NCBI GenBank assembly: GCA_016188005.1
Contig: JACPIQ010000068.1
Coordinates: 1 to 64,000 of the forward strand
Reading direction: 5' to 3'
From: Candidatus Rokuibacteriota bacterium
Lineage (GTDB): Bacteria; Methylomirabilota; Methylomirabilia; Rokubacteriales; CSP1-6
Length of the DNA: 64,000 nt
Shown: piece after piece, positions 20,412-60,736 of the stretch
Numbering within the stretch: position 1 is the first letter of the stretch
How the letters are laid out: the number at the start of each line of letters is the position of its first letter
Position numbers and translations under genes: made by a program
Notes under the pieces: generated by a model
Seen by the model: the letters and a program-made list of their open reading frames with translations, nothing else
What the model was told of the DNA's origin: nothing
Databases searched by the model: none

Positions 20412-20885
20412 CTACCGCTTCGCCATCTTCTCGGCGGCGTACTGGATGGCCTTGACGATGTTGTGGTAGCCCGTGCAGCGGCAGAGGTTGCCCTCCAGCT
20501 GGTGGCGGATCTCGGCCTCGGAGGGATTCGGGTAGCGCTGGAGCAGCTGGGCGGCCGACATGATCATGCCTGGCGTGCAGAAGCCGCATTGCAGTCCGTG
20601 CTTCTCCCAGAAGCCTTCCTGGATGGGGTGGAGCTGCCCATCCCTGGCCAGCCCCTCGATGGTGGTGATGGTGGCCCCGTCGGCCTGCACGGCCAGCAGC
20701 GTGCAGGACTTCACCGCCGCGCCGTTCAGGTGGATCGTGCAGGCCCCGCACTGGCTGGTGTCGCAGCCCACATGCGTGCCCGTGAGCCCCGCCAGCTCCC
20801 GGATGAAGTGCACCAGGAGCATCCGCGGCTCGACCTCGTGGGAATAGCTCACGCCGTTGATCGTCATGGTGACTTTCGTTTTCAC
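20412..20885 (-). CDS. coxS: CoxS-like 2Fe-2S subunit
   Basis: This 157-aa small subunit carries two [2Fe-2S] clusters: the plant-type site [15 protein letters not shown] with a later Cys (VKSC), and the helical site CGFCTPGM with CRCTGY. I chose GTG 20885 because GAGGAGG lies 7 nt upstream and the length then matches the family; a longer frame from 20942 adds a proline-rich stretch without homology. It is the first gene of coxS-coxL-coxM and starts 58 nt after larC. Confidence 0.94.
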
Positions 20886-20943
20886 CGCGGGGACCTCCTC
20901 GCTGGGCCGACGGTTCAGTGGCTTGGGAAAAGCGCCCCTCACC

Positions 20944-22206
20944 CTATGCCGTGCCTGGGCCGGATGTCAAGAGCCGGCGCCCCTCGGCCCGGGCCGCGTC
21001 GAGCACCTCGCGCACGGGCAGGCCTCTGTCCCGGGCAATCTGCCGCACCTCGTCGAACTCGGGCGTCACCGTGACCACCCGGTCGCCCAGGCGCGAGACC
21101 TTGAAGGCCAGTGCGCCGTACGACGTCTCCAGCCTCACCAGCTCGCGCGGGAGCCGCTGGCGCTGCCAGGCCGCCCAGCGAACGCCGATGGTGGTGGACT
21201 CCTGAAAGAGCGCCCGCGCGACCGCCCCGACGTCGCCCTGCTCGCAGAGGGCCGTGAGGACCACGCCGGGGCGGCTCTTCTTCATCAGGACGGGGGTGAG
21301 GTACACATCCAGCGCCCCCGCGGTGAAGAGCCGCTCCATCAGGGGCTCCCAGAGCTGGGGGGACATGTCGTCCACCGTGGTCTCGACCTGGAACACCGTC
21401 TCCGTCGCGACCCCCATCGGGTCGGGCGGCGCGGCCCCTTCCCCCACGAAGAGCCGGATCACGTTCGGCGTGTCGAGGTCCATGCTGCCCGCGCCGTAGC
21501 CCACGGCGGAGACGGTCATGGCGGGCATGGCCCCGGCCCCCGCGGCCAGCGTCGTGAGGATCGCCGCCCCCGTGGGGGTCACCAGCTCCCGCTTGACCCC
21601 GGTGTCCACCACCGGGAAGCCGCGAAGCAGCTCGGCGGTCCCAGGCGCGGGCACCGGGACCTGGCCATGCGGCCCGCCCGCCATGCCGCCGCCCAGCGGC
21701 AGGGCCGAGCAGTGCAGCACCTCGATTCCCAGCAGGTGGAGGCCCAGGCAGGCCCCGGTCACGTCCACGATCGCGTCCACCGCCCCCACGTCGTGGAAGT
21801 GCACCTCGTCCACGCTCACCCCATGCACGCGCCCCTCGGCCTCGGCCAGCCGCGTGAAGATCCGCGCGGCGTGGTCCCGGACGGGTCCCGGCAGCGCGCT
21901 GCGTTCCAGGATGCCGAGGATGACGGCCAGGCTGCGGTGCGGGTGGACGTAGGAGCCGTGGGGGCGCTCGTGGGCGTGACCGGGCCCGTCGTCGGGGCCG
22001 TGGCCGTGGTCGTGGACATGGACGTCCACCTTCGTCGCCCGGAAGGCGCCTTTCATCACGTCGCGCCGCTCGAGGGAGTAGCCGCCGAGGTCGAGCCCCG
22101 CCAGTCCGTCGCGAAGCGCCTCGAAGGACAGCCCGGCGTCCACGAGGGCGCCCAGGATCATGTCCCCCGACGCCCCGCTCGGGCAGTCGAAGTACGCCAG
22201 CTTCAT
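20944..22206 (-). CDS. larC: LarC, nickel-pincer cofactor nickel insertase
   Basis: This 420-aa LarC family protein (formerly DUF111) uses CTP to insert nickel into the pincer nucleotide cofactor of lactate racemase and related enzymes. The N-terminal [26 protein letters not shown] motif is diagnostic. A histidine-rich linker ([22 protein letters not shown]) suits nickel binding, and the CTP/hydrolase half includes [23 protein letters not shown]. It is a single uninterrupted frame, whereas some larC genes need a programmed frameshift. larE is just upstream, but larB and larA are not in the window. Confidence 0.94.
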
Positions 22207-52198: not shown

Positions 52199-52219
52199 CG
52201 GCCGAGGAGGGCTTCCGCC

Positions 52220-52822
52220 ATGCCCGTGCACATCGTGGAATACGCCGACTATCTCTGACCGTGGTGCTACCCGGCGGCGGTTCGCCTCCGGCGGCTCCAG
52301 GACGAGATGGGCGACGACCTCGTCATCCAGTGGAAGGCCTTCCCGCTCCGCCCCGCGCCGGACCCGAGCGTCACCTTCAAGGGCACGTACCGCGAGGAGG
52401 GGTGGCGGCGCTGCGACGCGATGGCGCAGGGAGACGGCATCCGGTTCACGCCATGGCCGCGCGACGAGTACCCCCACTGGTCGCTCCCGGCCCTCGAGGC
52501 CGCCAAGTGCGTCCTCCTCCAGGGACGCGAGGCGTTCGAGCGCCTACACCTGCTCTTGTACGAGGCCTTCTTCACCCGCAGCGTGAACATCGCCGACCCG
52601 GAGGAGCTGACCGGCGTGATCCGCGAATCGGGCGCCGACATGCCGCGCTTCCTCGCCGACTTCGGGGGCGGCGCGGGGCGCCAGGCGGTCCTGGCCGACT
52701 ACCAGGATGGGCTCACGCGCGACCGGGTGCGCGCCATCCCCACCATCGTCGTGGAGGGCGGCCAGCGGCTCACCGGCCTCGCGGACCTCGCCACGTACAG
52801 GAAGGCGATCGAGTCCGCGTAG
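52220..52822 (+). CDS. DsbA/FrnE-family thiol oxidoreductase, candidate selenoprotein (UPWC active site, in-frame UGA)
   Basis: Read through one UGA, this is a 200-aa DsbA-fold protein of the FrnE/2-hydroxychromene-2-carboxylate isomerase-like group. ATG 52220 (GAGGAGG upstream) gives MPVHIVEYADYL, UGA at 52256-52258 (codon 13), then PWCYPAAVRLRRLQDEMG. In relatives the motif reads D-x-x-CPWC-Y, so the UGA replaces the first, nucleophilic cysteine while the second (Cys16) stays. The rest is an intact domain, with the cis-Pro turn VRAIPTIVVEGG near residue 174, so it is not a decayed gene. A suitable stem-loop follows the UGA. Conventional annotation would start it at 52307 and lose the active site. 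It probably works as a thiol-disulfide exchange enzyme; no signal peptide is seen, so it is cytoplasmic. Confidence 0.85.
52256..52291 (+). promoter_or_regulatory. Candidate bacterial SECIS element
   Basis: Starting 13 nt after the UGA, CCGG (52271-52274) pairs with CCGG (52288-52291), a C-U mismatch follows, and GGCG (52276-52279) pairs with CGCC (52283-52286) around the apical triloop GUU (52280-52282). A short stem with an apical loop that has G among its first two bases, placed about 16 to 37 nt after UGA, is what bacterial SelB-dependent SECIS elements require; here the loop is at +22 to +24. GC-rich coding DNA makes hairpins common, so it is supportive rather than decisive. Confidence 0.65.
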
Positions 52823-55123
52823 GTGACTGGCCTCCCTCGCCTCCGCTACGACAGTCCGCTCCTCTTCGGCCGGGACCCCGCCGAGGGGCTGCTGGCCTTC
52901 GCGCCGCTGGAGGGCTCCGTGCGGGGCTGGGCGCGGCAGGAGGGGCGCGTCGTCGCCAGCGAGTTCCCCTTCCAGCCCTTCCTGCTGCTCACCGAGGGAG
53001 CGCTGCTCCGCGGGTTCAAGGGTGACGCGGAGCTGTCCCCCCTCGAGGGAGAGCGCGGCTATCGCTGCCTCGCCCGCCTGCCCACGTGGGCTCAGGCCGA
53101 GAAGGCCCGCGAGCATTGCCGGAAGGTCACCGGCCGCCCTCCCGGCGCGCCGGACGCCCCGTACCGCTTCCTCGGGGAGGCCACGCATCAGTTCCTCCTC
53201 TGGACGGGGAAGACCTCGTTCCGCGGGATGGTGTTCGGTGACCTTCGTCGCATGGCCCTCGACCTCGAGGTCCTCACCGGCCCCGGCTTCGAGTTCCCCA
53301 ACGCACTCCGCGAATCCGACCGGATCATCGCCATCGCCCTGGCCGACTCGTCGGGGTGGAGCACCGTCCTGTCCGGCGCGGCACAGTCCGAGGCCGAGCT
53401 GATCGAGGACTGCTCGCGCCTCATCCGCGAGCGCGATCCCGACGTGCTGGAGGGGCACAACATCTTCCGCTTCGATCTCGAGTACATCGAGGCCCGCGCC
53501 CGGCGCCACGGCGTCGCGCTGGCTTGGGGCCGCGACGGCTCGGCGCTCGCCGGTCACCCTTCGCGCATGCAGGTGGCCGAGCGGACGATCTCCTACCGCC
53601 GCTACCGCGTGGCGGGGCGCCACATCGTGGACACGTGGATCCTGGCCCAGCTCCACGACGTAGCGGCGCGCGACCTTCCCTCCTACGGCCTGAAGGACGT
53701 GGCGCGCCACTTCGGCGTGGCCGCTCCCCACCGCACCTACTTGCCGCCGGAGGACATCCCACGCATCTTCCGGGAGGAGCCGGCACGGCTCATGGCCTAC
53801 GCGCGCGACGACGTGCTGGAGACCGTGGCGCTGTCGGCGATCCTGTCGCCACCCTACTTCGTCCAGGCCCAGGCGCTGCCCCTCGACTACGAATCGGTGG
53901 TCCTCAGGGGCAATGCCACGAAGATCGATGCGCTCCTGCTGCGGGAGTATCTCCACCAGCGGCGGGCCGTGCCCCAGCCGTGCCCCGGCCGGGCCGTCGC
54001 GGGCGGCTTCACCGCGCTCTTTCAGCAGGGGGTCGCGCGGGACGTCGTGCACGTGGACGTGACATCGCTCTACCCCTCGCTCATGCTCGCAGAGGGCCTG
54101 GCTCCCGCCTCCGACGCGCTCCGCGTCTTCTCGATCCTGCTGCGTGACCTGCGCGACTTCCGTGTGGCGGCCAAGCGCCTCGCCAACGAGGCGCCTGCCG
54201 CGGCCGAGCGGCTCTTGCTGACCGCGCTCCAGCAGACCTTCAAGATCCTCATCAACTCGTTCTACGGCTACCTGGGTGCCGGCTTCGCGCACTGGAACGA
54301 CTACGACGTCGCCAACCGCGTGACCGCCGAGGGGCGCCGGCTGGTGACGGCGCTGCTCGACCGCCTCCGCGAGCTGGGGGCGACGCCCATCGAGGTGGAC
54401 ACCGACGGCATCTACTTCACTCTCCCCCCCGCGTCGCGCCCCGCCGCCGGGGACGGGGACAGCGCCGTCGCCCTCCTCGCGGCGCTCGCCGGGGTTCTGC
54501 CCGAGGGAATTCAGCTGGAGCTGGCCGGCCGCTACCCGGCCATGCTGAGCTACAAGATGAAGAACTATGTGCTCCTGGACGCGGACGGCAAGCTCCTCGT
54601 CAAGGGATCGAGCCTGCGCTCCCGCGGCCTCGAGCTCTTCCAGCGCCGGTGGATGGAGGAAATGTTCCGGCTGCTCCTCACCGGGCGTCGCGACGAGATC
54701 CCGGCGCTCCTGCGCCGCTGGGAGGAGGACTTCACCCACCGGCGCCTGACGGTGCAGCAGTTCATGAAGACGGAGACGCTGCAGGAGTCCCCGGCGAACT
54801 ACCAGGAAAAGGTCGCGGCGGGGACGCGGAACCCAAGCGCGCTCTACCAGCTGGCGCTCCGGTCCTCGCGGGCATACCAGGCTGGCGATCAGCTCTCCTA
54901 CTACGTGACCGGCACCGGGCCGCGGGTGAAGGTCAACGAGGCCGCCAAGCTGGCCTCGTCCTGGGACCCGGCCGCCCCCGACGAGAACACGGCCTACTAC
55001 CTCGCCAAGCTCCGCGACCTCCACGAGAAGTTCCGCCCCCTCATCGAGCAGGACGGCCTGCGGCCGGTGGAGGAGGACGTGGCGGCCGCTCCGACCCAGG
55101 AGTCCCTCGATCTCGACGCCTGA
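52823..55123 (+). CDS. Family B DNA polymerase (Pol II-like)
   Basis: This 766-aa DNA polymerase with 3'-5' exonuclease starts at GTG 52823, directly after the stop of the candidate selenoprotein gene. Exonuclease motifs are ExoI ALDLEVL (about residue 141), ExoII EGHNIFRFDLEYI and ExoIII YARDDVLET. Polymerase motifs are A DVTSLYPSLM, B KILINSFYGYLG and C VDTDGIYF, with KMKNYVLL as the KxY-type element. All catalytic carboxylates are present. Bacterial family B enzymes usually act in translesion or repair synthesis. Its length is close to E. coli Pol II (783 aa), but the N-terminal domain differs. Confidence 0.92.
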   Translation: MTGLPRLRYDSPLLFGRDPAEGLLAFAPLEGSVRGWARQEGRVVASEFPFQPFLLLTEGALLRGFKGDAELSPLEGERGYRCLARLPTWAQAEKAREHCRKVTGRPPGAPDAPYRFLGEATHQFLLWTGKTSFRGMVFGDLRRMALDLEVLTGPGFEFPNALRESDRIIAIALADSSGWSTVLSGAAQSEAELIEDCSRLIRERDPDVLEGHNIFRFDLEYIEARARRHGVALAWGRDGSALAGHPSRMQVAERTISYRRYRVAGRHIVDTWILAQLHDVAARDLPSYGLKDVARHFGVAAPHRTYLPPEDIPRIFREEPARLMAYARDDVLETVALSAILSPPYFVQAQALPLDYESVVLRGNATKIDALLLREYLHQRRAVPQPCPGRAVAGGFTALFQQGVARDVVHVDVTSLYPSLMLAEGLAPASDALRVFSILLRDLRDFRVAAKRLANEAPAAAERLLLTALQQTFKILINSFYGYLGAGFAHWNDYDVANRVTAEGRRLVTALLDRLRELGATPIEVDTDGIYFTLPPASRPAAGDGDSAVALLAALAGVLPEGIQLELAGRYPAMLSYKMKNYVLLDADGKLLVKGSSLRSRGLELFQRRWMEEMFRLLLTGRRDEIPALLRRWEEDFTHRRLTVQQFMKTETLQESPANYQEKVAAGTRNPSALYQLALRSSRAYQAGDQLSYYVTGTGPRVKVNEAAKLASSWDPAAPDENTAYYLAKLRDLHEKFRPLIEQDGLRPVEEDVAAAPTQESLDLDA

Positions 55124-57940: not shown

Positions 57941-59143
57941 ATGATCTCAGTGCAGGAGGGCCAGGCGCGGATCCTCGCGCAAGTCACCTCCGTCGCGCCG
58001 CCCCAGGTCGTCCCGCTCCCCGAAGCGCTCGGCCGCGTGCTCGGCGAAGCCCTGCGGGCGGCCATCGACGTCCCCCCGGACGACAACTCCGCCGTGGACG
58101 GCTACGCCGTCGCCCACGCGGAGGTCGCCGCGGGGGGCCACCGCAGCCTGCGGGTCGTGGCCGATCTCCCCGCCGGCGCCATGTTCGACGGCCGCCTCGC
58201 CGCCGGGGAGACCATCCGCATCATGACGGGAGCGCCCATGCCCGCCGGCGCCGACACCGTGTACCCCCAGGAGGTGGCCGAGCGCGAGGGAAGGCGGATC
58301 CGTGTGGGAGCCATCGTGCGCGGCGCCAACGTCCGCTATCGCGGCGAGGACGTGCGGGCGGGCGGAGTCGTCCTCGAGGCCGGCACGGTGCTCCGTCCCC
58401 AGGAGCTGGGCGTGGCAGCCTCTCTCGGCCTGCCACAGCTCAGCGTGCGCCAACGCCCGCGCGTGGCCATCGTCTCCACCGGCGACGAGGTGGCCGAGCC
58501 GGGCGGAGCGCGCAAGCCGGGACAGATCTACGACTCCAACCGCTTCTCGATCCGCGGCCTCGTCGAGCAGGCCGGGGGCCGGGTCATCGACCACGGCGTC
58601 GTCCCCGACCTCTTCGACGAGCTTCGGGCGAGGCTCCTGAGGGCCGCGGGCGACGCCGACATCGTGCTCACCTCCGGCGGGGTCTCGGTGGGGGACTACG
58701 ACCTCGTCAAGGCCGTGCTCCGGGAGTCCGGCGGCATAGACTTCTGGCAGGTGGCCATGCAGCCCGGCCGCCCGCTGGCCGTAGGGCGCATCGGCCCGGC
58801 GCACTTCTTCGGGCTGCCGGGCAATCCCGTCGCCTCCATGCTGACGTTCTGCCTGTTCGTGCGCCCGGCGCTCTGGAAGCTGGCGGGCCGGCGCGACCTC
58901 TTCCCTCCCCGCTTCCATGCCGTGGCGGTGGAGCCCTTGAGCAAGAAGCCCGGGCGGCGCGAGTTCAAGCGCGGCGTCCTCGCTTACACCGGCGAGCGGT
59001 GGGAGGCGCGGAGCACGGGGCCGCAGGGCTCCGGGATCCTCACCTCCATGGCCCGGGCCAACTGCTTCATCGTCATCGAGGAGGAGCGGGGGGACGTGGC
59101 GCCCGGAGAGCGCGTCGTCGTCGAGCCCTTTCCCCCCGCCTGA
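57941..59143 (+). CDS. moeA: Molybdopterin molybdotransferase MoeA
   Basis: This 400-aa enzyme inserts molybdate into adenylated molybdopterin. The N-terminal substrate domain has PPDDNSAVDGYAVAHAE, then IRIMTGAPMPAGADTVYPQE; the MoCF domain has RVAIVSTGDEVAEPG, YDSNRFSIRGLVEQ, VLTSGGVSVGDYDLVKAVL and FGLPGNPVASMLTFCLFVRPAL. The C-terminal beta domain is present. It supplies cofactor to the cox-type enzyme encoded about 40 kb away, among others. It is the first gene of a plus-strand set with tldD, tldE and transketolase. Confidence 0.96.
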   Translation: MISVQEGQARILAQVTSVAPPQVVPLPEALGRVLGEALRAAIDVPPDDNSAVDGYAVAHAEVAAGGHRSLRVVADLPAGAMFDGRLAAGETIRIMTGAPMPAGADTVYPQEVAEREGRRIRVGAIVRGANVRYRGEDVRAGGVVLEAGTVLRPQELGVAASLGLPQLSVRQRPRVAIVSTGDEVAEPGGARKPGQIYDSNRFSIRGLVEQAGGRVIDHGVVPDLFDELRARLLRAAGDADIVLTSGGVSVGDYDLVKAVLRESGGIDFWQVAMQPGRPLAVGRIGPAHFFGLPGNPVASMLTFCLFVRPALWKLAGRRDLFPPRFHAVAVEPLSKKPGRREFKRGVLAYTGERWEARSTGPQGSGILTSMARANCFIVIEEERGDVAPGERVVVEPFPPA

Positions 59144-59167
59144 GCGCGCGCGCTCCTGCGCTATCCC

Positions 59168-60736
59168 ATGCCGCACCGGATCCGGACCGACCTGATGGAG
59201 CAGATCGCTCCCCTCGCGGAGGAGACGGCGACCGCCTTCGCCCGCAGCCTCGCCGACCTGGCCTACGCCGATGTCCGGGTCGAGATCAGCGAGGGCAAGT
59301 GGGCTTCGGCGGAGAACGGGTCGGCCAAGTCCTCGGGCGACGACTATAGCTTCGCGGTCGGGATGCGCGTGCTGGCGGGTTCCCGCGCCATCGCCCCGGG
59401 GTACTTCGGCCGGGCGCTGGGCGCGGCGGACCTCGACGGGCTCGCGGCGCTCCTGCGGGACGGCTTGCGCACCGCGCATCGACGGGCGCTGGCGAATGCC
59501 GAGGCGAAGGCGGACGCGCGGGGGAAGTTCGGTCCCCTGGGCGAGGCCCTGACTGACACGCGCCTCTCCCCGGTCCGCGCCAGTCGCGACGTGGTGCCGC
59601 CGGTCTTCGAGCTCGACCCGCGCAGCATGGATCTCGGCGAGATGGTCCACTTCGCCACGGAGGTGTCGCGCCAGGTCTCCGGCGCGGACAGCCGTCTCCG
59701 CTACAACTACATCTCCGCCATGACCCAGCTCGCCCGCGAGCTGTTCGCCTCCTCCGAGGGCGCCCTCATCGACCAGTCCTTCGCCCTGACCCAGGGCATG
59801 TGCTACCTCGTGGCGGGTGACGAAGGCCACGGCCAGGAGATCTACGACGTGGTGGGCCACCAGCGCGGCTGGGAGATCCTCGCCGCGGGCGTGGACGATC
59901 CGCTCCTGGCCTTCCCCCCCTTCCCGCGCTTCGCGCTGGACATGGCCCGGGAGGGCGCGGAGCTGGCCACGGCACCGCCTCTCCCTACCCTGGACCGGGC
60001 GGTCACCGTGGTGACGGACCCGCATTACAACACCCTCGTCGCCCACGAGATCATCGGCCACCCCATGGAGCTCGACCGGGGCCTCAAGCTGGAGACGGCG
60101 TATGCCGGGCGGTCGTGGCTCCTCCGGGACCTCGACCGCCACCACCTCGGGCGGCAGATCGCCTCGCCGCTCGTGACCGCGTACTCCGACCCCGCGCTGC
60201 CCGGTTACGGACACTACAGGTACGACCACGAGGGCACGCCGGCCCGGCGTGTGGTGCACATCGAAGACGGCGTGTTCAGGGGCTTCATGAACAGCCGGCA
60301 GACCGCCGCCATCTTCGGCGGCAGCCCGAACGGGCACTGGAAGGCCACGGAGGCCTCCCTCGTCCCCCTCATCCGCATGTCCAACACGGTGTTCGGCGCG
60401 GGCGAACGCGACCCTGCCGACATCATCAAGGAAGTCGACCGCGGCTACTACCTCGTGGGCCACAAGACGCCGTCCATCGCCGAGAGCCGTGAGAACTTCC
60501 GCATCTCCGCCCGCAAGGTCTACGAGATCCGCGACGGACAGCTCGGGCGCCTGTACCGCGACGGCGGGATGATGGCCGACACGCAAACCTACCTCATGAA
60601 CGTCGACGCGGTGGGATCGGACTTCCGCCTCTACCCGATCCCGAATTGCGGCAAGGGGCAGCCCATGCAGACCAAGAAGCTCGGCAACGGCGGGCCGACC
60701 ATGCGGAGCCGCGCCATCATCACCGGAGGCCACTAG
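59168..60736 (+). CDS. tldD: TldD-type metalloprotease subunit
   Basis: This 522-aa protein of the TldD/PmbA family carries the zinc site HEIIGHPMELDRGL (HExxxH) that distinguishes the active subunit, and the C-terminal SRENFRISARKVYEIRDGQLG segment. TldD/TldE heterodimers are peptidases that process RiPP precursors and CcdA-like peptides. It lies 24 nt after moeA and is followed by its partner tldE. Confidence 0.92.
   Translation: MPHRIRTDLMEQIAPLAEETATAFARSLADLAYADVRVEISEGKWASAENGSAKSSGDDYSFAVGMRVLAGSRAIAPGYFGRALGAADLDGLAALLRDGLRTAHRRALANAEAKADARGKFGPLGEALTDTRLSPVRASRDVVPPVFELDPRSMDLGEMVHFATEVSRQVSGADSRLRYNYISAMTQLARELFASSEGALIDQSFALTQGMCYLVAGDEGHGQEIYDVVGHQRGWEILAAGVDDPLLAFPPFPRFALDMAREGAELATAPPLPTLDRAVTVVTDPHYNTLVAHEIIGHPMELDRGLKLETAYAGRSWLLRDLDRHHLGRQIASPLVTAYSDPALPGYGHYRYDHEGTPARRVVHIEDGVFRGFMNSRQTAAIFGGSPNGHWKATEASLVPLIRMSNTVFGAGERDPADIIKEVDRGYYLVGHKTPSIAESRENFRISARKVYEIRDGQLGRLYRDGGMMADTQTYLMNVDAVGSDFRLYPIPNCGKGQPMQTKKLGNGGPTMRSRAIITGGH

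Follow-up and report, generated by a model that had tools for sequence, protein, structure and literature searches.

DsbA-like selenoproteins with a UxxC motif have been described several times. They were found in the GOS survey as DsbA 1/2 (PMC2398784), were counted as "DsbA-like protein" with 45 proteins in 41 organisms (PMC5029168) and are referred to as "DsbA-like protein form 1" with PF01323 and UxxC in a further paper, in which a MAG of the Methylomirabilota, with 63 predicted selenoproteins, is also cited (PMC13188914). FrnE is a predicted cytoplasmic disulfide reductase of the DsbA family, which carries CP(W/F)C and often a C-terminal CX4C (PMC8945050). As for the RNA signal, the model of the bacterial SECIS (bSECIS) places the loop 16-37 nt from the UGA, with a G in the first two positions of the loop and, in most cases, a pair around G[G/U] (PMC13188914), and the key loop bases of the E. 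coli fdhF SECIS are G23 and U24 (PMC8659212).

The gene described here was found in a stretch of 64,000 nucleotides (hereafter the window) from a Candidatus Rokuibacteriota bacterium, an uncultured organism of soil or groundwater, and it very probably encodes a cytosolic FrnE-like thiol(selenol)-disulfide oxidoreductase of the DsbA fold, in which the nucleophile is selenocysteine (Sec) in a UPWC motif and the UGA is decoded as Sec. The source genome is a draft assembly of 5.37 Mb in 140 contigs and is 98% complete. Rokubacteria are placed in the Methylomirabilota by GTDB. A literature search for Rokubacteria and selenoproteins gave no paper on the present case in the collection searched, and the main text of PMC12013277 makes no mention of DsbA, FrnE or Rokubacteria.

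Reading frame, fold and active site

A single frame runs from the ATG at 52220 to the TAG at 52820-52822 on the forward strand, and the sole internal stop in its translation is the TGA at 52256-52258. Read through, it gives MPVHIVEYADYL-U-PWCYPAAVRLRRL..., a protein of 200 aa with U as residue 13. The features of the locus are the following.

52205-52210, + strand: Shine-Dalgarno-like AGGAGG, 9 nt 5' of the ATG (read from the sequence)
52220-52822, + strand: putative Sec-containing DsbA/FrnE-like protein, 200 aa via the TGA (translation; PF01323; model pLDDT 96)
52256-52258, + strand: in-frame TGA, proposed Sec codon, residue 13 of UPWC (all 45 orthologues have TGA; 62 more distant homologues have Cys)
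52265-52267, + strand: TGC of the resolving Cys16 of UPWC (Cys invariant in the alignment)
52271-52291, + strand: bacterial SECIS-type hairpin CCGG.GGC[N1 GU N2]C.GCC.CCGG (codon conservation, covariation, bSECIS model of PMC13188914)
52739-52741, + strand: Pro174, proline of the cis-Pro loop, AIPT (column invariant in 46 sequences)
52823-55123, + strand: family-B DNA polymerase, whose GTG stands directly after the TAG; this neighbour is conserved among Rokubacteria (PF00136, PF03104; synteny)

A preliminary description of this DNA had proposed one frame through the UGA into a DsbA-fold domain, with its own ribosome site and start upstream, and had expected a gene caller to begin at 52307; all of these points agree with the translation, with the AGGAGG and the ATG listed above and with the table-11 ORF, which covers only 52307-52822 (171 aa) and starts at the ATG at 52307. 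Routine annotation truncates the gene at this ATG and the active site is lost. When the 64-kb window was scanned for coding potential, no other TGA with coding sequence on either flank was convincing. The other read-through candidates in the window, at 615-1034 and 57950-60736, seem to be due to chance or to two neighbouring genes. TGA is the usual stop in the window, ending 34 of its 48 predicted genes, and it is therefore not globally reassigned.

The protein matches PF01323 (DSBA) with 68.6 bits against a gathering cut-off of 25.6, and AlphaFold, given an alignment of 46 sequences, predicted a structure with a pLDDT of 96.2 and a pTM of 0.92, in which U13 lies between strand 1 and helix 1. 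The features of the DSBA fold are present in the model, that is, a thioredoxin fold with an inserted helical domain, the CxxC position at the start of helix 1 and a cis-Pro, a role which Pro174 is given on established knowledge of the thioredoxin fold. In a sequence-profile search of the PDB, D. radiodurans FrnE came first (E 6e-20), and FrnE is also among the best fold matches of Foldseek, together with 2in3, YjbH, SCO1869 and DsbM; DsbA, HCCA isomerase and GST-kappa are fold neighbours as well. The model comes close to cytosolic oxidoreductases of the FrnE, DsbM and YjbH types. The earlier assignment to FrnE is thus in line with both searches. In NCBIfam no family came above its cut-off (NF041057, 38.7 bits vs 190).

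The active site is UPWC here and CPWC in Cys homologues, corresponding to the CP(W/F)C of the FrnE subfamily (cd03024). The C-terminal CX4C, present in many but not all FrnE proteins, is absent, the protein ending at residue 200. Cys65 and Cys97 occur in 31/31 Sec orthologues of the alignment; its Cys-type homologues (n=15) have another residue at the position of Cys65 and keep Cys97 in 6/15. The protein is probably cytosolic, because it has no signal peptide and its active site lies 13 residues from the N-terminus.

Sec, Cys and the selenocysteine machinery

The distribution of UGA was surveyed in 95 genomes of the phylum, which gave 45 orthologues with the site covered, from eight families and with 45-100% identity. 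Residue 13 is TGA in all 45 (45/45), it is TGC or TGT in 62 more distant homologues, giving CPWC or CPFC, and no codon other than these three was seen at the covered sites. The preliminary description had placed the UGA at the nucleophilic Cys of CPWC relatives, and Cys is indeed found at exactly residue 13 in the 62 homologues; it had also noticed no other defect after the UGA, and the orthologues, down to 45% identity, are likewise free of other defects. No reversion of the putative Sec to Cys is seen in any orthologue, and the UGA is nearly fixed across the phylum. Matches above 45% identity without TGA lack the active-site region, those in G036, G003 and G084 being cut near contig ends. 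The other such match, an orthologue (L133, G043:C46:20053-20379), has no active-site segment and contains a TAA, so it is either a decayed gene or an assembly error.

A Sec/Cys exchange is seen within one paralogue clade: at this site TGA is present in L124-L128 and TGC in L129 and L130, close relatives whose proteins are otherwise very similar. Among relatives that have a public name, Candidatus Rokubacteria bins are nearest, at 86% and 78% identity. The pattern used for a contig scan, DYLCPWCY, is biased to Cys relatives, and the Sec/Cys distribution given here was taken from the unbiased family and phylum searches. Because orthologues keep Sec across families and related lineages use Cys, the clade is well suited to a test of why Sec persists.

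Four PF01323 proteins were found in the genome, on contigs C68 (the window), C59, C134 and C99, and TGA stands at this position in all of them. Every DSBA-domain protein found in the genome appears to use Sec. The three further proteins are listed below.

G000:C59:10108-10695: DSBA-domain protein with TGA, UPYC (L114)
G000:C134:37466-37993: DSBA-domain protein with TGA, UPWC (L115)
G000:C99, about 20607-21060: DSBA-domain protein with TGA, UPYC (L116)

The rest of the genome had been named as the place to look for selA, selB, selC and selD, and all four were found.

C4:43285-43378: selC (tRNA-Sec), anticodon TCA (69.3 bits, cut-off 47; SeC in ARAGORN)
C4:44812-46176: selA (577 bits)
C4:46195-48078: selB (364 bits)
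C86:102037-102972: selD (L118; 348 bits), with its own in-frame TGA

selC, selA and selB are clustered on the single contig C4, and selD reads ...SYAACAGUASKMG..., with U at the usual Sec position (CAGUASK). The in-frame region upstream of selD also reads through as a long ORF. Within the same taxonomic family, selA is above the cut-off in 51/57 genomes and in 27/31 of those having a TGA orthologue. The search of the family genomes gave no selA match in G023, G026, G042 and G053, all with a TGA orthologue, probably due to incomplete assemblies.

With these components, SelB would recognise a hairpin that starts about 12 nt past the UGA, together with the GU at its apex, and would deliver the tRNA-Sec that decodes the UGA as Sec; SelA and SelD would supply selenocysteinyl-tRNA and selenophosphate. 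In the protein, Sec13 would be the residue that attacks disulfides of the substrate, or other oxidised thiols, and Cys16 the one that resolves it, with Pro174 as the cis-Pro; Cys65 and Cys97 may help regeneration. Actual Sec insertion is inferred, as are the exact redox role, the direction of the reaction and the substrates.

The SECIS-type hairpin and other readings of the TGA

A putative SECIS-type element, for which the preliminary description had not looked, follows the UGA. The hairpin begins about 12 nt past the UGA and is encoded within 35 nt after it, with the apical GU at 52280-52281 and the covarying bases N1 and N2 at 52279 and 52282, respectively. Nucleotide conservation after the TGA is far above what the protein needs. 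Among 32 orthologues there is no variation at codons 18 (CCG), 19 (GCG) and 22 (CGC), and 31/32 (97%) share CTC at codon 23, compared with a mean modal frequency of 0.72 at the other conserved codons. As third positions of the codons for Ala20 and Val21, N1 and N2 are free at the protein level, yet they are complementary in 45/45 Sec genes (G-C 21, C-G 17, G-U 7), while in Cys homologues with Val21 they could pair in just 12/39. In a structure count, none of 500 shuffles and no slid register reached the paired cells or the covariation of the alignment. On the protein tree the N1:N2 class switches about 5 times, both sides always together, and strongly supported branches carry only 3 of these. 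The distance from the UGA to the start of the loop (GTT) is 21 nt, within the 16-37 nt of the bSECIS model, and the loop has a G in its first two positions.

More divergent families have another stem sequence, e.g., CCTGC...GCTGCAG, in which by eye the helix is shifted by one base. For the 50-nt sequence of the window itself, minimum-energy folding gave no greater stability than for shuffles of this GC-rich sequence (z -0.89), and a crude hairpin scan separated Sec from Cys genes weakly (33/45 vs 25/62). Because the fold energy of the single sequence is not significant, the case for SECIS rests on conservation and covariation, and what defines the SECIS loop from sequence alone is the signal at synonymous sites together with the compensating N1:N2 pair.

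Several other explanations have to be weighed against decoding as Sec. The TGA might be a true stop, ending a 12-codon leader peptide, with re-initiation at the ATG at 52307 and a truncated protein without a redox motif; the 171-aa ORF does begin there and TGA is a normal stop in the genome. However, residues 1-32 make up the first strand, the active site and the first helix of the modelled fold, the protein is conserved on both sides of the TGA, including Cys homologues which read straight through, and few codons of the gene are as conserved as codons 14-28, which lie between the TGA and this ATG, so that such a stop is hardly credible. In a 140-contig draft assembly a single base change would be enough to produce a TGA, by decay to a pseudogene or by a sequencing or assembly error in which TGC was read as TGA, but the chance of this is practically nil, since the identical TGA occurs in separately assembled genomes, down to 45% identity and with no other defects. 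The misreading of TGC, foreseen as a possible refutation at the outset, is answered by the same count: 45/45 orthologues carry TGA, and it is thus not an isolated read error.

It is also very unlikely that a suppressor or near-cognate tRNA reads the UGA as Trp or Cys and not as Sec. Read-through as Cys would account for the Cys homologues too, but the genome has a complete Sec system, a SECIS-type element with a conserved pair at its apical GU follows the UGA, most predicted genes of the window end with UGA and selD has the usual Sec position. A different kind of alternative accepts the insertion of Sec and gives the protein another role within the DsbA/GST-kappa/HCCA-isomerase superfamily, as a selenol-dependent peroxidase or a glutathione-dependent isomerase. 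HCCA isomerase and GST-kappa are among the fold neighbours, and a selenol at the nucleophile position can support peroxidase chemistry; nevertheless, the motif is UPWC, not UxxS, with an invariant resolving Cys16, and the best profile match is FrnE, a disulfide reductase/isomerase. Such a role is considered unlikely, and the gene is read here as that of a FrnE-like oxidoreductase with Sec as its nucleophile.

Neighbouring genes and comparison with known systems

The family-B DNA polymerase lies downstream in all but one of the 31 orthologue loci of the family, the exception being on a contig which ends soon after the gene, and a divergent dienelactone-hydrolase-like gene lies upstream at most of the 31. 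A TPR-like ORF stands between the Sec gene and polB in several genera (L024, L026, L029 and L032). Outside the family, the polymerase adjoins the gene in one genome (L134/L135) and was not found in the other genomes within the stretches fetched around the gene. The redox protein and the polymerase may possibly form an operon. That an ancestral FrnE-type Sec clade, found nearly throughout the Methylomirabilota and having two extra invariant Cys, works with the family-B polymerase in redox-linked DNA synthesis or repair is a speculative proposal which is quite unlikely to be right.

The Sec reading of the preliminary description is upheld by the machinery, the TGA of all 45 orthologues and the 62 Cys homologues, whereas the novelty that it implied was overstated, because DsbA-like UxxC selenoproteins were already described (PMC2398784, PMC5029168, PMC13188914). 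The new details are a clade with near phylum-wide fixation, a strictly compensating SECIS pair and synteny with a family-B polymerase, and the case contributes a selenoprotein clade with good support from a phylum that is uncultured and rich in selenoproteins.

The DsbA-like UxxC selenoproteins resemble the present protein in having PF01323, Sec at the first Cys of CxxC and Cys homologues, a likeness of domain and motif only, and neither Rokubacteria nor FrnE is named for them in the main text of PMC2398784, PMC5029168 and PMC13188914. The E. coli fdhF SECIS is likewise a hairpin 3' of the UGA with GU at its apex, but by direct count the apical G here is 2 nt farther from the UGA, a conserved U17 bulge is not seen and the stem is GC-rich with a C/U mismatch. 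The thioredoxin-like (seleno)lipoprotein of the Rcas_1661 family (NF041057) is a Sec/Cys family too and matches the C-terminal half weakly, although its score is far below the cut-off (38.7 bits vs 190) and the present protein has no lipoprotein signal. FrnE (Deinococcus radiodurans DR_0659; PDB 5cnw, 5cp1) shares with it the DsbA fold, the CP(W/F)C-type active site and a predicted cytosolic location. Unlike FrnE, to which it has about 18% identity in the structural alignment, the present protein is without CX4C, has what is in all probability Sec in place of the first Cys and carries two other invariant cysteines, Cys65 and Cys97.
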